DNA from: an uncultured Mediterranea sp.
Lineage (GTDB): Bacteria; Bacteroidota; Bacteroidia; Bacteroidales; Bacteroidaceae
Reading direction: 5' to 3'
Assembly (NCBI GenBank): GCA_945836915.1
Contig: CAMAMO010000003.1
Coordinates: 1 to 37,448 of the forward strand
Length of the DNA: 37,448 nt
In this document: piece by piece, positions 11,192 to 21,117 of the stretch
How positions within the stretch are numbered: the stretch's first letter is position 1
How the letters are laid out: every line of letters starts with the position of its first letter
Made by a program: the position numbers and the translations under genes
Notes under the pieces: model-generated
Database searches by the model: none
Told to the model about the DNA's origin: nothing
Seen by the model: the letters and a program-made list of their open reading frames with translations, nothing else

Positions 11192-12718
11192 GTGGATACA
11201 GGACTACTGTTTTGTGGATTGAACTGGCAGGCATGGATAACTATTGTGCTGGTGGTGGGTATGTTTATCACCTTGATGAAGACGCGTTTGCCGGCGGATA
11301 TGGTCTTTCTTGCGGTGATGGCGCTACTGGTGATTTGTGGTTGCTTGCCTGCCACCGAAGCGCTCAAAGGGTTTTCATCGAGCTCAGTGGTGGTTGTAGG
11401 TGCGCTCTATATTGTGGTGGCTGGTTTGGAGGCCTCGGGTGTGCTGCATTGGATTGTGAAACACCTGCTGGGTACACCCGGCTCTTACTGGAAGGCCATC
11501 GTGCGACTGATGTTGCCTGTGGCTGCTCTCTCGGCTTTTCTGACTAACGCCACGGTGGCGGCTCTTTTTATCAATGTGGTGAAGATGTGGGCTAAGAAGC
11601 TGGGTATTGCTCCCTCGAAACTTCTAATCCCCTTGAGTTATGCTGCTGGTATGGGTGGGGTCTGTACGCTGATTGGTACGGCTCCTAACTTGATTATCTC
11701 TGGATTCTACGCTGAGACTTCAGGCCATGTGTTAGGTCTCTTTTCCACCACTCTACCGGGTCTGTTCTGCCTCTTGGTGGGCGTAGGGAGCGTCATCGCG
11801 ATGCAGAAGCTGCTGCCTGTGCGTAAGTCGCCAGAAGAGGAGCTCAACGCACTGCATACCGCGACGACTGAACTGCATGTTCTGCCTGATTCGCCTCTGC
11901 CCGGACAAACCTTGGCGGACATCCACCTCTTGGAGGATAGTAAGGGGTGTGAGCTGATTGGTATCGTTCGCTTTGATGGCGAGGTGGTGAACCGCATAGA
12001 GCCCGACGAGTTCTTGATGGGTGGCGACACCTTGATCTTTACAGGGCAGCGTGAAAAGGTGCTGATGCTGGGCCGACGCTACGGCATGGCTTGCGATAAA
12101 CTGGATGAGGAGCAGGCTGCGCATAGCGGCTTCCGTACGCTGGGCTCGGCGCTCATTATGCTGGGTATGGTTCTGCTCTCTGCCTTTAATGTGATGCCTT
12201 TGCTTACCAGTTGCTTTGTCGCTGCGCTGCTGATGCTACTGACCCGCTGCTGTGGGGTGAAGCAGGCGAAAAAGGCGATTAATTGGGATGTTTTGATGGT
12301 TTTTGCCTGCTCCGTCACGTTGGGTAAAGCGATTGATGCCACCGGACTGGCGCAGCTGTTGGCCAACCAGACCAGTGAAATCTGTGGGTCGAATGCGCTG
12401 CTGGCCTTTATCCTTATTTGTACGTTGGGCACGTTTCTCACCGAATTTATCTCGAATACGGCCTGTGGTGCGATTATGGCTCCAGTGGCCATCAAGATTG
12501 CCCTCTCGATGGGGGCTAATCCGCTGACCTTCTGCATGGGACTGATGATTGCTTGTTCCAGCAGCTTTGCTACACCCATCGGTTCGCCCACTCATCTCAT
12601 GGTCTATGTGCCTGGCGGCTATCGGTTTACAGACTTCCTGCGCATCGGTTTGCCAATGAACTGCATCATTTTGGCGGCCAACGTACTGATTTGTTGTATT
12701 CTCTACCCCTTATACTAA
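11192..12718 (+). CDS. SLC13 family permease / citrate-transporter-like with internal RCK_C (TrkA-C)-like segment
   Basis: 508 aa, many TMs; FLTNATVAALFINVVKMWAKKLGIAPSKLLIPLSYAAGMGGVCTLIGTAPNLIISG; cytosolic segment LPDSPLPGQTLADIHLLEDSKGCELIGIVRFDGEV...GGDTLIFTGQREKV. Apparent GTG start. Confidence 0.8.
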   Translation: MDTGLLFCGLNWQAWITIVLVVGMFITLMKTRLPADMVFLAVMALLVICGCLPATEALKGFSSSSVVVVGALYIVVAGLEASGVLHWIVKHLLGTPGSYWKAIVRLMLPVAALSAFLTNATVAALFINVVKMWAKKLGIAPSKLLIPLSYAAGMGGVCTLIGTAPNLIISGFYAETSGHVLGLFSTTLPGLFCLLVGVGSVIAMQKLLPVRKSPEEELNALHTATTELHVLPDSPLPGQTLADIHLLEDSKGCELIGIVRFDGEVVNRIEPDEFLMGGDTLIFTGQREKVLMLGRRYGMACDKLDEEQAAHSGFRTLGSALIMLGMVLLSAFNVMPLLTSCFVAALLMLLTRCCGVKQAKKAINWDVLMVFACSVTLGKAIDATGLAQLLANQTSEICGSNALLAFILICTLGTFLTEFISNTACGAIMAPVAIKIALSMGANPLTFCMGLMIACSSSFATPIGSPTHLMVYVPGGYRFTDFLRIGLPMNCIILAANVLICCILYPLY

Positions 12719-12725
12719 TCTGTTT

Positions 12726-14558
12726 ATGCGTGCTATAAGTCACTTAAAACTCCTGCATGACCCCATCTTGCGTGTTTGCCTCTTGGTGATGGGGGCCAGC
12801 ATCGTGGTGCTGGGTCTGATTTTTGCCATCTCTAACCAGAGTGCCAGCAAGCAGATTCTTGAAAGCTCTATCCGTTTGGCTCAACTGAATGTGGAGAAGG
12901 CGAAGGGTGTCGTGGAACGTCAGCTCACGGCCATTGAGACGACGGCGTTTAACCTGAGTTCTACCCGTATTCGCCGCTATCGCGAAGCGAATCAGATTTA
13001 TGACCTGCTGGAGCGTTTTGTCAACTCGAACCCTGTAATCTGGGGTATTGCTATCGGTTATGAACCTGGCGTCATTCCGGGCCATGAGGAGGGATTCGCC
13101 CCCTACGTTCGGCGTGTGGAGGGTGTGACTGAACGGCTTAACCTGCTTGAGATGGGGCGTACCTACCTGCAGTCTGAATGGTACGTCACGCCTATGCGCC
13201 AAAAGGAGCCCTTCTGGTGCAAACCGTTTCGCGATGTCAAGAATGCGCTTATCGCTTGCTTCTGCATCCCGCTGACCGACGAGCAAGAGCGGCCTATCGG
13301 CGTCATCGCGGTGGATATGCTACTGGACCAATTCACGGAGCAGTTGGTCAAGGAGATTCAGCCCTACGAGCACTCAGACTGTATGGTGCTCGACAAAGAT
13401 TTGGACTTTATCGCTCATCCCGACCATAGCCTCATCATGACCTCGCTGGCCGATGCGGTATCCAAAATTACGCAAGAGAATGGTTGCCAAGAGAACGAAA
13501 GTATCGCTATCCGGATGAGAAACAGGGATCAAGGGTACGATACCTATTCAGAGCATACTCGCTTTGAGGGGATGATGTTCTACGCGCCCATTCGGCAGAC
13601 TGAATGGACGGTGGCCCTCTCTATCCTGAAGTCGGACATCTTTAAAGAGAGCCGCAAATTAGCCCGTTCGATGTTCTACCTTTGCCTGGCGGGGGTTTTC
13701 CTGATGGTCTGTGCTTCGGGCTTTCTCTTTAACAAGATACGGAAGGTTGTGGAACATAAGGCTGGCATTGAGCGCGAGCTTTCTATGGCCCACAACATCC
13801 AGATGGCTATGGTGAAGAAGGTATTCCCTGCCTATCCCGATCGAGACGACATCGACGTCTATGCGACGCTGATACCCGCTAAGGATGTGGGTGGCGACCT
13901 CTTCGATTTTGCGCTAAAGGGGGAGGTGCTCCATTTCTGCATCGGCGACGTGAGTGGAAAGGGGGTGCCCGCCAGTCTCTTCATGGCCATTACGCGTACC
14001 CTCTATCGAAGCATCATCGCTCGCGAAGAGGCACCAGCACGGATTGCCGAAGCACTTAACCAATCCATCGCCGTAGATAACAAAGAGAATATGTTTGTTA
14101 CCATGTACATCGGTACGCTCGATTTGAAGAGCGGCAAACTGAGACTCTGCAACTGCGGCCATAACGTCCCCTTGTCGAACGGCATACCCGCCAACAGCCA
14201 GCGGAAGGGGGAAGAGGAGATAGAGCAGATGACCCTGACTAACCACATGGAGTTCATGACGTTGCCTCCCACCAACATCCCTATCGGGGTGATGGAGGAG
14301 TTTCCATACGAAGAGATGACCCTGCAGATAGAACCAGGCTTCAGACTCCTCCTCTATACCGATGGGATTACCGAGGCGGAGAATATGGACCACCAACTCT
14401 ATGGCGAAGAGCGGTTGCGGGTGGAGCTAAGGGAGGTTAGCTGCAAGAAGCAGAGTGCGCAGCTTGACGTAGAGCATATTCTGAACAGCGTACACCGGCA
14501 TGCCAATGGCTATACCCAGTCGGATGACATCACGATGCTCTCTATCCATTATAAATAG
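12726..14558 (+). CDS. SpoIIE/PP2C-type serine phosphatase with extracytoplasmic Cache-like sensor between two TM helices
   Basis: N-terminal TM, Cache-like WYVTPMRQKEPFWCKPFRDVKNALIACFCIPL...GVIAVDMLL, second TM, then ERELSMAHNIQMAMVKKVFP...DVGGDLFDF...FCIGDVSGKGVPASLFMA...LLLYTDGITEAEN...SDDITMLSI. Confidence 0.88.
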   Translation: MRAISHLKLLHDPILRVCLLVMGASIVVLGLIFAISNQSASKQILESSIRLAQLNVEKAKGVVERQLTAIETTAFNLSSTRIRRYREANQIYDLLERFVNSNPVIWGIAIGYEPGVIPGHEEGFAPYVRRVEGVTERLNLLEMGRTYLQSEWYVTPMRQKEPFWCKPFRDVKNALIACFCIPLTDEQERPIGVIAVDMLLDQFTEQLVKEIQPYEHSDCMVLDKDLDFIAHPDHSLIMTSLADAVSKITQENGCQENESIAIRMRNRDQGYDTYSEHTRFEGMMFYAPIRQTEWTVALSILKSDIFKESRKLARSMFYLCLAGVFLMVCASGFLFNKIRKVVEHKAGIERELSMAHNIQMAMVKKVFPAYPDRDDIDVYATLIPAKDVGGDLFDFALKGEVLHFCIGDVSGKGVPASLFMAITRTLYRSIIAREEAPARIAEALNQSIAVDNKENMFVTMYIGTLDLKSGKLRLCNCGHNVPLSNGIPANSQRKGEEEIEQMTLTNHMEFMTLPPTNIPIGVMEEFPYEEMTLQIEPGFRLLLYTDGITEAENMDHQLYGEERLRVELREVSCKKQSAQLDVEHILNSVHRHANGYTQSDDITMLSIHYK

Positions 14559-14614
14559 ATGATACGCGCTATCTCTTAATAAAGATTATTCATTCAACAT
14601 ATTCCTTCTTATAT

Positions 14615-14917
14615 ATGAAACTTGAAATCATAGACCAAGGTGCCGAAGTAAAAGGCATTTTGATAGGCCGCTTAGATACAGCTGCCTCTGCACAGTTTGC
14701 TACCGATATGCAACCCTTAATGGATCGGGCCGATAAGCATATTCTGTTAGATTGTAGCCAGCTGGAGTTTATCTCTTCATCGGGTTTGCGCCTCTTTCTT
14801 ACCCTGCGTAAAGCCACCATCGCCGCACATGGCGACGTAACCATTACGGGTATGAACCATGAAGTGAAACAGGTTTTCGCCCTGACGGGCTTCCTCAGCC
14901 TCTTTAAGTTTGCATAA
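14615..14917 (+). CDS. STAS domain anti-sigma factor antagonist-like protein (SpoIIAA/RsbV type)
   Basis: 100 aa; ILLDCSQLEFISSSGLRLFLTLRKA with phosphorylatable Ser in the ISSSGLR motif. Confidence 0.88.
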   Translation: MKLEIIDQGAEVKGILIGRLDTAASAQFATDMQPLMDRADKHILLDCSQLEFISSSGLRLFLTLRKATIAAHGDVTITGMNHEVKQVFALTGFLSLFKFA

Positions 14918-14999
14918 CCTGCGGTAGGTATAGGATGATCAGCCATGCGATAGGAACACGATTTTCATAACTTGAGACAGTCATACGAATATCATAAAG

Positions 15000-15410
15000 A
15001 TGAAAAAGCAAATCATCTTGGAGAACCGGATAGATGAACTCGTCAGGCTCAGCGCTTTCATCGACGCGCTTGGCGAGGAGTGGAGTATCGCGCCAGAGGT
15101 GGTCTTCAACCTACAGCTGGCTCTGGAGGAGTGTGCCACCAACGTAATCATGTATGCCTATCCCCCCGAGGAGAAGCAGACGCTCTTGGTGACTGCAGAG
15201 CTGGTGGAGCATGACTTGGTGCTGACTATTGAGGATGGCGGTTTGCCTTTTGACCCCACGCAGGTAGCCGAAGCCGATACGACCCTCTCGGCAGAAGAGC
15301 GCCCCATTGGCGGACTGGGTATCTTCCTTGTTCGGCAGTTGATGGATACCGTAGCTTACCAACGCGTTGAGGGGAAGAATCGATTGACGCTGATGAAGCG
15401 AATTAACTAA
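15000..15410 (+). CDS. RsbW/SpoIIAB-like ATP-binding serine kinase (HATPase_c_2)
   Basis: 136 aa; N-box LALEECATNVIMYAYP; G1 EDGGLPFDP; G2 GGLGIFLVRQLMD. Confidence 0.88.
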   Translation: MKKQIILENRIDELVRLSAFIDALGEEWSIAPEVVFNLQLALEECATNVIMYAYPPEEKQTLLVTAELVEHDLVLTIEDGGLPFDPTQVAEADTTLSAEERPIGGLGIFLVRQLMDTVAYQRVEGKNRLTLMKRIN

Positions 15411-15420
15411 TTTGAAACGT

Positions 15421-16200
15421 ATGACAGAAACAGAATGGATACAACGGCGTGACGGAGTGGTTGCTCACCTCGGCCTACTGAGGGAGATGAAGGCAAGGGG
15501 CGTAGATGCCGAAGAGGCACGGCTTGCCTGCGATGCTGCCATGGAGCAATGGGGCCCCATGGCCGAACAACTGGGCATGAGCCTTGAACAGCATGAAATG
15601 CTTGACTTGGCTGTGGAGTTGGGCTACCCTGACGACTACAAGGAATTGAAATGCCTGCTGAGGGAATCGGAGGCGATGTGCCAGAATGTGTTCGAGGCTT
15701 TTGCCCTCCCTATCCACTCTCTCCTTGAGGATTTAGGCATCGAATATAGTTTCAAGTATCGCATGAAATCTATTTACAGCATTTGGCGGAAGATGCGGGT
15801 AGCTCATAGGGAGTTTGATGATGTTTACGACCTCTTCGCTACACGCATCGTCTATAAAACGGGTGAGCAGATAGCTCCCTTGGCCCCGCCTAATGTTGTG
15901 GATACGCTTCCGGGCGTCTCTGAGGTGAAAGAACAGACGCTCAGTCAGATGGATACCGAGAAACTCTATTGCTGGCGCATCTATACGGTGATTAGCTCGC
16001 TCTACCGTATCCACCCCGACCGCATCCGCGATTGGATTACTCATCCAAAGCCTTCAGGTTATCAAGCGCTACAACTTACGGTCATGGGACCCGATTGTAA
16101 CTGGATTGAGATACAGATTCGCTCTGAGCGTATGGACTACGAGGCGGAACATGGTTCAGCCAGCCATTTTCTCTACAAGCAAGAGACTCAGGTGAAGTAA
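15421..16200 (+). CDS. RelA/SpoT nucleotidyltransferase-domain protein lacking HD hydrolase and C-terminal regulatory domains
   Basis: YRMKSIYSIWRKM (cf. RxKSxxSIxRKM), FDDVYDLFATRIVY, HPKPSGYQALQLTVMGPDCNWIEIQIRSERMDYEAEHGSASHFLYK. Preceding AMEQWGPMAEQLGM...LEQHEMLDLAVELGYPDDYKEL resembles the long-RSH linker (YAPLAxRLGI...LEDLAFxxLxPxxYxxL). MTETEW start at 15421. Confidence 0.85.
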   Translation: MTETEWIQRRDGVVAHLGLLREMKARGVDAEEARLACDAAMEQWGPMAEQLGMSLEQHEMLDLAVELGYPDDYKELKCLLRESEAMCQNVFEAFALPIHSLLEDLGIEYSFKYRMKSIYSIWRKMRVAHREFDDVYDLFATRIVYKTGEQIAPLAPPNVVDTLPGVSEVKEQTLSQMDTEKLYCWRIYTVISSLYRIHPDRIRDWITHPKPSGYQALQLTVMGPDCNWIEIQIRSERMDYEAEHGSASHFLYKQETQVK

Positions 16201-16234: not shown

Positions 16235-17488
16235 TCACTCCTCGGGTGAGGCGTAGATTAGCGTGGAGAGGTGCTCGCGATGGAACATCTCGTTGGCTAC
16301 TTCAAAGAGCTCGTCGGTGGTCAGGGCATCTATTCGGCGACAGACGGCCTGCGGCAATTCGTAGCGGTTGTAGTGCAAGAAGGCTTTGGCCATGGAGAGA
16401 GCCATGCTTTCGTTGTTGTCTGAGGCGACGCCAATCTGTCCGATGAGTTGCTTCTTGGCGGCGGTGAGCTGGGCCGTGGTGAGGGGTCGCTGACAGAGGA
16501 GGTCGAGTTCTTTGGTCACCAGCTGAATGCAACGGCGACGGTCTGCGTCATCACACCCCAGGTAGATGCAGAAGGTTCCCGTATCAGTATAGGCCGTAAG
16601 GTTCGACTCCACGGTATAGACCAATCCACGTCGTTCGCGTAAGGAGAGGTTGAGACGGCTGTTCATACCAGGGCCTCCTAACATGTTGTTGAGTAAATAG
16701 AGCGCTGTGCGCTTGGGGTTGTAGGCATCGTAGCCTCTGGCTCCTATCATGATGTGGTTCTGATGTGTATCCTTCTCTACCAGCAGTTGGCGAGGCTCAT
16801 AGGGTGATGGCTTCTGGCGTTCGTTACACGAGGGGCGAGGAGGTTCTGCGCCAGCCAGCCGTTCCATCATCTTAACGATACGCATGAAGGGGTAGTTACC
16901 CAAGACGAAGAAGACCATATTGCCTGGATGGTAGTAGCGCTCCACAAAGGCCTTCACCTTCTCTGTAGTGAAGGTCTTGAGCTGATTGGGGGTACCAAGG
17001 ATGTTGTGTCCCAAAGGGTGACCTTGAAAGATGAGGTCTTCAAAGTCATCGAAAATCAGTTCTGAGGGAGTATCTTCATAGCTCTGTATCTCATCGATAA
17101 CCACCTCGGTCTCCTTGACCAGTTCTTGCGAGGGGAAGGTGGAGTGAAATACGATGTCGGTCAGTAGTTCGGTAGCTCGCACCAAGTGCTCGTTGAGAAA
17201 AGCGGCATAGACCACGGTCTCCTCTTTGTTAGTATAGGCGTTGAGGTCGCCTCCTACATGCTCCATTCGGTTAAGGATATGCCAGGCTTTGCGGCGTTGG
17301 GTTCCCTTGAAGAGGGTATGCTCTACGAAATGAGCCATACCCTGCTCGTCAGGCCGCTCATCGCGTGTACCAGCATCGATAGCATAGCCGCAGTAGGTAA
17401 CTGGCGAGCTGGAAAGAAGGTGTATGATGCGTAAGCCATTGGCCAGCGTATGGGTATTGTAAGTGGTAAAAATTGGTTGGTTCGACAT
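16235..17488 (-). CDS. M16 family metallopeptidase (insulinase-like)
   Basis: HFVEHTLFKGT (HxxEH zinc motif); MVFFVLGNYPF; NNMLGGPGMNSRLNLSLRERRGLVYTVES. Start at MSNQPIFTTYN (17488). Confidence 0.9.
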   Translation of the reverse strand: MSNQPIFTTYNTHTLANGLRIIHLLSSSPVTYCGYAIDAGTRDERPDEQGMAHFVEHTLFKGTQRRKAWHILNRMEHVGGDLNAYTNKEETVVYAAFLNEHLVRATELLTDIVFHSTFPSQELVKETEVVIDEIQSYEDTPSELIFDDFEDLIFQGHPLGHNILGTPNQLKTFTTEKVKAFVERYYHPGNMVFFVLGNYPFMRIVKMMERLAGAEPPRPSCNERQKPSPYEPRQLLVEKDTHQNHIMIGARGYDAYNPKRTALYLLNNMLGGPGMNSRLNLSLRERRGLVYTVESNLTAYTDTGTFCIYLGCDDADRRRCIQLVTKELDLLCQRPLTTAQLTAAKKQLIGQIGVASDNNESMALSMAKAFLHYNRYELPQAVCRRIDALTTDELFEVANEMFHREHLSTLIYASPEE

Positions 17489-17519
17489 AGTTGAAAAACG
17501 ATGTTTGTTAATTCGGCCA

Positions 17520-17527
17520 CAAAAATA
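17520..17527 (-). promoter_or_regulatory. -7 box TATTTTTG for the M16 peptidase
   Basis: plus-strand caaaaata, 32 nt upstream of the ATG at 17488. Confidence 0.45.
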
Positions 17528-17632
17528 CAACAAAAGTTATTGCCGTTTGTGAAAAATTGCAGATATTTGCAGATGAGAATGGAGGAATGCTGTTTGGCAT
17601 CCCTATCATAAACCTTTAAAACAAAAGAAACA

Positions 17633-20906: not shown

Positions 20907-20938
20907 CAAAGATAGTGCAAGCCGAGCGAAAATGCAAA
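20907..20938 (-). promoter_or_regulatory. Bacteroidetes promoter TTTG-N20-TATCTTTG formed by the gene-proximal 81-bp repeat copy
   Basis: Minus strand: TTTTTG ending at 20935, 20-nt spacer (20934-20915), TATCTTTG (20914-20907); ATG at 20879. Confidence 0.65.
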
Positions 20939-21117
20939 AAGAAGCTTGCTTATTTTTGCTTTACCGAGGCGCCGCCTATCTTGGCGCAGCAAAGAGTGCA
21001 AGCCGAGCGAAAATGCAAAAAGAAGCTTGCTTATTTTTGCTTTACCGAGGCGCCGCCTATCTTGGCGCAGCAAAGAGTGCAAGCCGAGCGAAAATGCAAA
21101 AAGAAGCTTGCTTATTT
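20915..21117. repeat. 81-bp tandem repeat array, about 2.5 copies; unit is an imperfect palindrome
   Basis: gtgcaagccgagcgaaaatgcaaaaagaagcttgcttatttttgctttaccgaggcgccgcctatcttggcgcagcaaaga starts at 20915, 20996 and 21077; third copy stops at 21117. Confidence 0.97.

Follow-up and report, generated by a model that had tools for sequence, protein, structure and literature searches.

The known targets of partner switches are sigma factors and, more rarely, diguanylate cyclases. What does such a switch control when the gene that stands beside it is of the RelA/SpoT type? The question is raised by a 37,448-nt stretch of DNA from an uncultured Mediterranea sp. (contig CAMAMO010000003.1), in which four plus-strand genes at 12726–16200 encode a Cache/PDC-SpoIIE phosphatase, a STAS protein, an RsbW-like kinase and a RelA_SpoT protein, hereafter REL. 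This stretch, the window, is the entire contig C3 of a 2.05-Mb Bacteroidaceae metagenome-assembled genome that is 79% complete. An earlier reading made from the letters alone (the sequence-only reading) had described the same four consecutive genes and proposed that the output of the switch is alarmone synthesis. We conclude that the locus probably encodes a SiaABCD-like partner switch having a RelA/SpoT-type synthetase as its output in the place of a sigma factor, with the STAS protein directly controlling the synthetase.

The switch genes and their operon

All four genes were recovered as open reading frames with Pfam/NCBIfam matches well above the Pfam cut-offs. The membrane phosphatase (610 amino acids, aa; 12726–14558, plus strand) combines an N-terminal PDC/dCache sensor (PF22673, E = 1e-12; PF02743, E = 8e-12) with a SpoIIE (PP2C) catalytic domain (PF07228, E = 2e-44), and its metal-binding motifs GGDLFD, GDVSGKG, YTDGI and DDIT are all intact. 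It is followed by an RsbV/SpoIIAA-like STAS antagonist of 100 aa (14615–14917, plus strand; PF01740, E = 3e-15; TIGR00377, above cut-off), in which the phospho-site noticed earlier as ISSSGLR is present within FISSSGLRLF. The region FISSSGLR is invariant or nearly so in the STAS proteins linked to REL. Next comes an RsbW/SpoIIAB-like serine kinase of 136 aa (15000–15410, plus strand; PF13581, HATPase_c_2, E = 6e-24), which is the sole HATPase_c_2 match of the genome over the Pfam cut-off. Its N-box (EECATN), G1 box (DGGLPFDP) and G2 box (GGLGIFL), previously described as intact, were all seen in the alignment.

REL is a small RelA/SpoT-type synthetase of 259 aa (15421–16200, plus strand), so classified from Pfam, residue alignment, an AlphaFold2 model, fold matches and a tree. 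The list of open reading frames starts it at TTG 15412; ATG 15421 is the likelier start, and with it the 10-bp gap between kinase and REL that had been reported is reproduced. Upstream, the gene for an SLC13/DASS anion transporter with a TrkA_C domain (11192–12718, plus strand; Pfam CitMHS, E = 1.8e-67, Na_sulph_symp and TrkA_C) stops 7 bp ahead of the phosphatase gene. The operon is therefore probably one of five genes with the transporter first, so that the four genes of the sequence-only reading stand and the start of the operon moves upstream. SLC13 homologues were seen in 30 of 124 loci having both STAS and kinase genes, and in six of 27 REL loci. No match to the Bacteroides-type promoter motif TTTG-N17-23-TAnnTTTG was found upstream of the operon; there are two matches elsewhere, near the chance level.

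REL stays with the switch genes while their order changes

A scan of 84,980 species returned 23 REL loci, and genome searches brought the total to 27 copies in 26 genomes, namely those of the window's bacterium and about 25 related species. All but one of these copies (26/27) lie within 5 kb of a STAS gene, the remaining one (L004) being at a contig end, and STAS and kinase genes are both present in 24 of the 27 loci, in about eight gene orders. The order is SLC13-PP2C-STAS-kinase-REL in the window and L001, kinase-STAS-REL in L010 and others, kinase-PP2C-STAS-REL in L006, REL-kinase-STAS in L007, REL-(PP2C::kinase fusion)-STAS in L017 and L023, REL-PP2C-kinase-STAS-SLC13 in L021 and kinase-PP2C-REL-STAS2-SLC13-STAS in L011. 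In two genomes, G318 and G381, REL and STAS stand alone and the kinase gene is elsewhere in the genome. Since the order has been shuffled and the content has stayed constant, the pattern argues for selection.

The kinase is present in 26/26 REL genomes, as against 92/299 (31%) of the genomes of the family. In a tree of STAS proteins, 26 of the 32 members of one clade (support 100/95) are REL-linked, the window's STAS among them. The three REL genomes of the family sample also give the three best STAS matches of 299, a ranking that is partly built in, as the STAS profile (A4) was made from REL-linked STAS proteins, with G318, G381 and the window among their sources. Conservation of the RelA-like gene with the switch genes, which the sequence-only reading had put forward as a check, is thus borne out, and we regard a functional linkage between synthetase and switch as well supported.

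A sigma factor could be the hidden output of such a switch. The nine Sigma70_r2 matches and the one Sigma70_r3 match of this 79%-complete genome are all on other contigs than C3, which agrees with the earlier remark that no sigma factor gene is visible in the window. Half of the REL genomes (13/26, the window's included) have a single region-3 sigma match, which is RpoD-sized and in no case on a REL contig, and no group-3 sigma factor was found on the REL contigs of the 26 genomes. A co-conserved sigma factor elsewhere that accounts for the kinase, the finding that was to refute the alarmone proposal, did not appear, and we rejected a sigma factor as the output of this locus.

A second synthetase subfamily joined to related switches

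Further STAS/kinase loci of the family were picked by their STAS and kinase scores, blind to synthetases. Among them recurred a second RelA_SpoT protein, SAS2, of ∼355 aa, which has a RelP/RelQ-like synthetase domain and an unassigned helical C-terminal region of ∼150 aa. SAS2 occurs in 37 of 299 family genomes, each of which also has STAS and kinase genes. STAS loci hold 24 of the 38 copies, 20 of them directly behind the STAS gene, and the two genes overlap by 1 bp in five loci and by 4 bp in four. This position led us to reject chance adjacency; a crude independence model (two STAS genes among 2,700) gives log10 P of about −52, a value overstated owing to the relatedness of the genomes, and the variety of gene orders speaks for the same conclusion. 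A third type, SAS3, a RelA_SpoT protein without the GYxxLH G-loop motif, is present in three STAS/kinase loci (L112:10759–11664, L123:8870–9754 and L197:14357–15241).

The SAS2-linked STAS proteins fall outside the REL clade of the STAS tree, so that, by this tree, a synthetase has been joined to such switches at least twice. Neither STAS nor kinase genes lie near the long Rels that are closest to REL, and among the SAS2 relatives found elsewhere in the phylum (L224–L253) none is within about 1.5 kb of a STAS or kinase gene. We therefore rejected an ancestral linkage; it would have arisen later. The proposal that the switch output is alarmone synthesis is strengthened by the second subfamily, which is independently linked to related switches, and by the conserved linkage of REL. 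It is narrowed by the rarity of REL, found in 3/299 sampled Bacteroidaceae genomes: the REL switch is not Bacteroidales-wide, and within this sample the window's genome is the sole REL carrier of its genus.

SAS2 is accompanied in 17/38 loci, as compared with 0/116 other loci, by a small HD_4 protein that looks like the hydrolase portion of Rel, which supports an alarmone-type product for SAS2. In L204, the two are fused (562 aa), so that this long SAS2 frame is a fusion of hydrolase and synthetase and not of STAS and synthetase. Nor are the ∼400-aa STAS frames of L153 and L132 such fusions, their partner being an APH-type phosphotransferase, by Pfam in L153 and by resemblance of sequence in L132. 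One long RSH (RelA/SpoT homologue) gene lies near a STAS locus (L185); as chance alone would yield about one such case, we drew nothing from it.

Descent of REL and its likely product

The RelA_SpoT match of REL (PF04607, E = 2.5e-27, 95.8 bits against a cut-off of 27) is its only domain; there is neither an HD hydrolase domain nor the C-terminal regulatory domains. In a tree of synthetases, REL forms one clade (100/100), which has the long Rel L039 as its sister and groups with other long Rels from the order (100/99); this placement makes a truncated Bacteroidales Rel the best interpretation of REL. An AlphaFold2 model (pLDDT, the model's confidence score, 84.8) has Rel catalytic domains as its best fold matches. 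With a single synthetase domain and the catalytic residues, REL shows the features of a small alarmone synthetase of the RSH superfamily.

The equivalents of RelSeq R241, K243, K251, D264, Y308 and E323 are retained in 22/22 REL proteins (R114, K116, K124, D137, Y214 and E230, all invariant, in the numbering of the window's REL). In RelSeq, D264 and E323 are catalytic (PMC7983052), Y308 stacks on the guanine, and GDP is contacted by N306 and, at its beta-phosphate, by H312 (PMC9143738). Two GDP-contacting positions are changed in all 22 REL proteins, N306 to Ser and H312 to Gln (Q218 in the window's REL), and these changes may alter the substrate. As the residues for ATP, Mg2+ and base stacking are kept, catalysis by REL looks possible, while the residues do not fix the identity of the acceptor.

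REL could thus pyrophosphorylate another acceptor: GMP to give pGpp, an adenosine nucleotide or, in the manner of toxSAS enzymes, the end of a tRNA. It might then be an effector of growth arrest or of defence against phages. Besides the Ser/Gln pair, a match of SAS2 to the candidate defence family PDC-S33 of PADLOC (L106:7229–8287, E = 2.4e-15) speaks for this. However, REL descends from a housekeeping Rel, and the long Rel L039 has the same Ser/Gln pair, which argues that the pair does not destroy function. SAS2 retains the His equivalent to RelSeq H312 and is accompanied by the alarmone-type hydrolase. The neighbours of REL over the 27 loci are STAS, kinase, phosphatase and SLC13 genes; no recurrent antitoxin-like gene was found among them, antitoxin families not having been searched for individually. 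We consider this reading very improbable. The HD_4 hydrolase was not found in REL loci, and for a (p)ppGpp-type product of REL, the long Rels would have to be the source of hydrolase.

Which protein would contact the synthetase

In the classical logic of RsbW, the kinase would sequester REL as it does a sigma factor, and the unphosphorylated STAS protein would free it. This would match the classical partner-switching order, and REL does adjoin the kinase gene in the window, L001–L003 and L007. In contrast, the gene immediately next to the synthetase is STAS in 15 of 27 REL loci and in 20 of 38 SAS2 loci, and REL is still beside STAS in G318 and G381. STAS proteins are also better conserved across REL loci (61–94% identity to the window's copy) than the kinases (36–83%), which are often fused to the phosphatase. 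Holding of REL by the kinase is therefore improbable, and STAS rather than the kinase is the likely contact of the synthetase.

It could also be that there is no direct contact, the synthetase being merely co-transcribed while the kinase and STAS act on some other target encoded in trans, such as a transporter or an unknown effector. The 74 surveyed STAS and kinase loci without a nearby synthetase mean that other outputs must exist; the SLC13 transporters recur among the 124 module loci, and NMT1-type binding proteins occur in Bacteroides-type modules. Nevertheless, two distinct synthetase subfamilies are linked to the switches, REL keeps its place beside STAS where the kinase has moved away, and the 1- or 4-bp overlaps of STAS and SAS2 genes suggest coupled translation of that very pair. 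We judge a lack of contact unlikely.

Some of our observations weigh against direct control of a synthetase by STAS. Those 74 loci make it clear that the module is not alarmone-specific and that most related switches act otherwise. REL is rare, 14 of the 38 SAS2 copies lie outside STAS loci, and REL-clade STAS proteins occur in five genomes without REL (G564, G425, G432, G314 and G294). No natural STAS–synthetase fusion was found in any of the loci. The phosphatase was not seen in the stretch read for 17 of 27 REL loci, some of these stretches ending early; all 26 REL genomes have SpoIIE phosphatases. The substituted GDP contacts of REL belong here as well.

Phosphorylation of STAS by the kinase, and its reversal by the phosphatase on a signal, are established for RsbUVW and SpoIIAA/AB. 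By analogy, the RsbW-type kinase would phosphorylate the STAS serine, and an extracytoplasmic signal, perhaps tied to the substrate of the SLC13 transporter, would make the phosphatase remove the phosphate. STAS in one of its phospho-states, most probably without the phosphate by the example of SiaC–SiaD, would then bind the synthetase and switch on (p)ppGpp-type synthesis, the sign of this effect coming from analogy only. STAS might in this way take the part of the regulatory domains that Rel has lost here, opening a route into alarmone signalling that does not need the ribosome. More generally, we lean towards a ribosome-independent circuit in which sensor phosphatase and RsbW-type kinase set the phospho-state of STAS, and STAS directly switches a RelA/SpoT-type synthetase. 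Such a circuit would have at least two origins among Bacteroidaceae and their relatives, one based on a truncated Rel (REL) and another, separate one on the RelP/RelQ-like SAS2, often together with a small hydrolase.

Other genes at switch loci and in the window

Several related switches have further partners. STAS is fused to an APH/choline-kinase-like phosphotransferase (∼400 aa) in L153:4307–5500 (by Pfam), and L132:10603–11880 is alike by sequence; both adjoin a PP2C::kinase fusion and STAS genes, and STAS frames of similar length occur in about ten more genomes of the family. These fusions are possibly another output or input of such switches. Four loci of the window's genus (L096, L097, L104 and L105) have an NMT1/THI5-like binding protein (by Pfam in L096), a sensor phosphatase, a kinase and a natural STAS::kinase fusion, and no synthetase. 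In L005, L116 and L119, genes for a ∼960–990-aa protein (ABC_tran and ABC2_membrane, by Pfam in L119) and a ∼270-aa lipoprotein-like protein lie between the kinase gene and the STAS and synthetase genes.

In the window, an M16 peptidase gene (16235–17533) adjoins REL; in G318 and G381, the kinase gene that lies apart from REL (L093:7736–8152 and L094:2911–3327) adjoins an M16 peptidase gene. A perfect 81-bp tandem repeat (20914–21117; 2.5 copies, 100% identity) sits between two minus-strand genes ending near 20909 and 21187.

Comparison with known systems

No paper describing a partner switch that drives a RelA/SpoT-type synthetase was found among the open-access full texts. If the proposed control is true, it shows how bacteria without SigB/SigF employ a partner switch and what governs a truncated Rel that has no regulatory domains. 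It would also connect an outside signal directly with the stringent response of gut Bacteroidaceae, in which alarmones are important for colonisation and for survival under starvation. The STAS–SAS2 pairs offer simple two-gene test cases.

With RsbU/RsbV/RsbW–SigB and SpoIIAA/SpoIIAB–SigF, the locus shares a SpoIIE-type phosphatase, a STAS antagonist with a Ser site and a HATPase_c_2 kinase. It differs in that no cognate sigma factor was found and a synthetase gene is in its place. Like RelP, RelQ and their relatives, REL has a single RelA_SpoT domain without HD, TGS or ACT domains (PMC3153485); unlike them, it derives from the Bacteroidales Rel. SAS2 is RelP/RelQ-like, but with the extra helical region. 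In a census of 2011, Rel and RshB are the only types given as typical of Bacteroidia (PMC3153485).

The closest parallels are switches with diguanylate cyclases, where the STAS or STAS-like proteins SiaC, HsbA and BgrV control SiaD, HsbD and BgrR by their phospho-state, unphosphorylated SiaC being the activator of SiaD (PMC8457831). In HsbA–HsbD of P. aeruginosa and BgrV–BgrR of Sinorhizobium meliloti, as cited in that paper, a STAS protein governs a nucleotide second-messenger enzyme through its own phospho-state, as we propose here; there, the output is a diguanylate cyclase, and here an enzyme of the RelA/SpoT type. SiaABCD of Pseudomonas aeruginosa, which responds to carbon supply (PMC7647112), likewise has a membrane PP2C phosphatase, a kinase, a phospho-switch protein and a nucleotide second-messenger synthetase in one operon, with no sigma factor. 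However, its switch protein SiaC is a DUF1987 protein and not a true STAS (PF01740) as here, its output is a GGDEF diguanylate cyclase making cyclic di-GMP rather than a RelA_SpoT protein, and our phosphatase matches SiaA weakly, under the cut-off (46 bits against 700). Partner switching with an alarmone-type nucleotide second messenger as output would be a new variation on these known switches.

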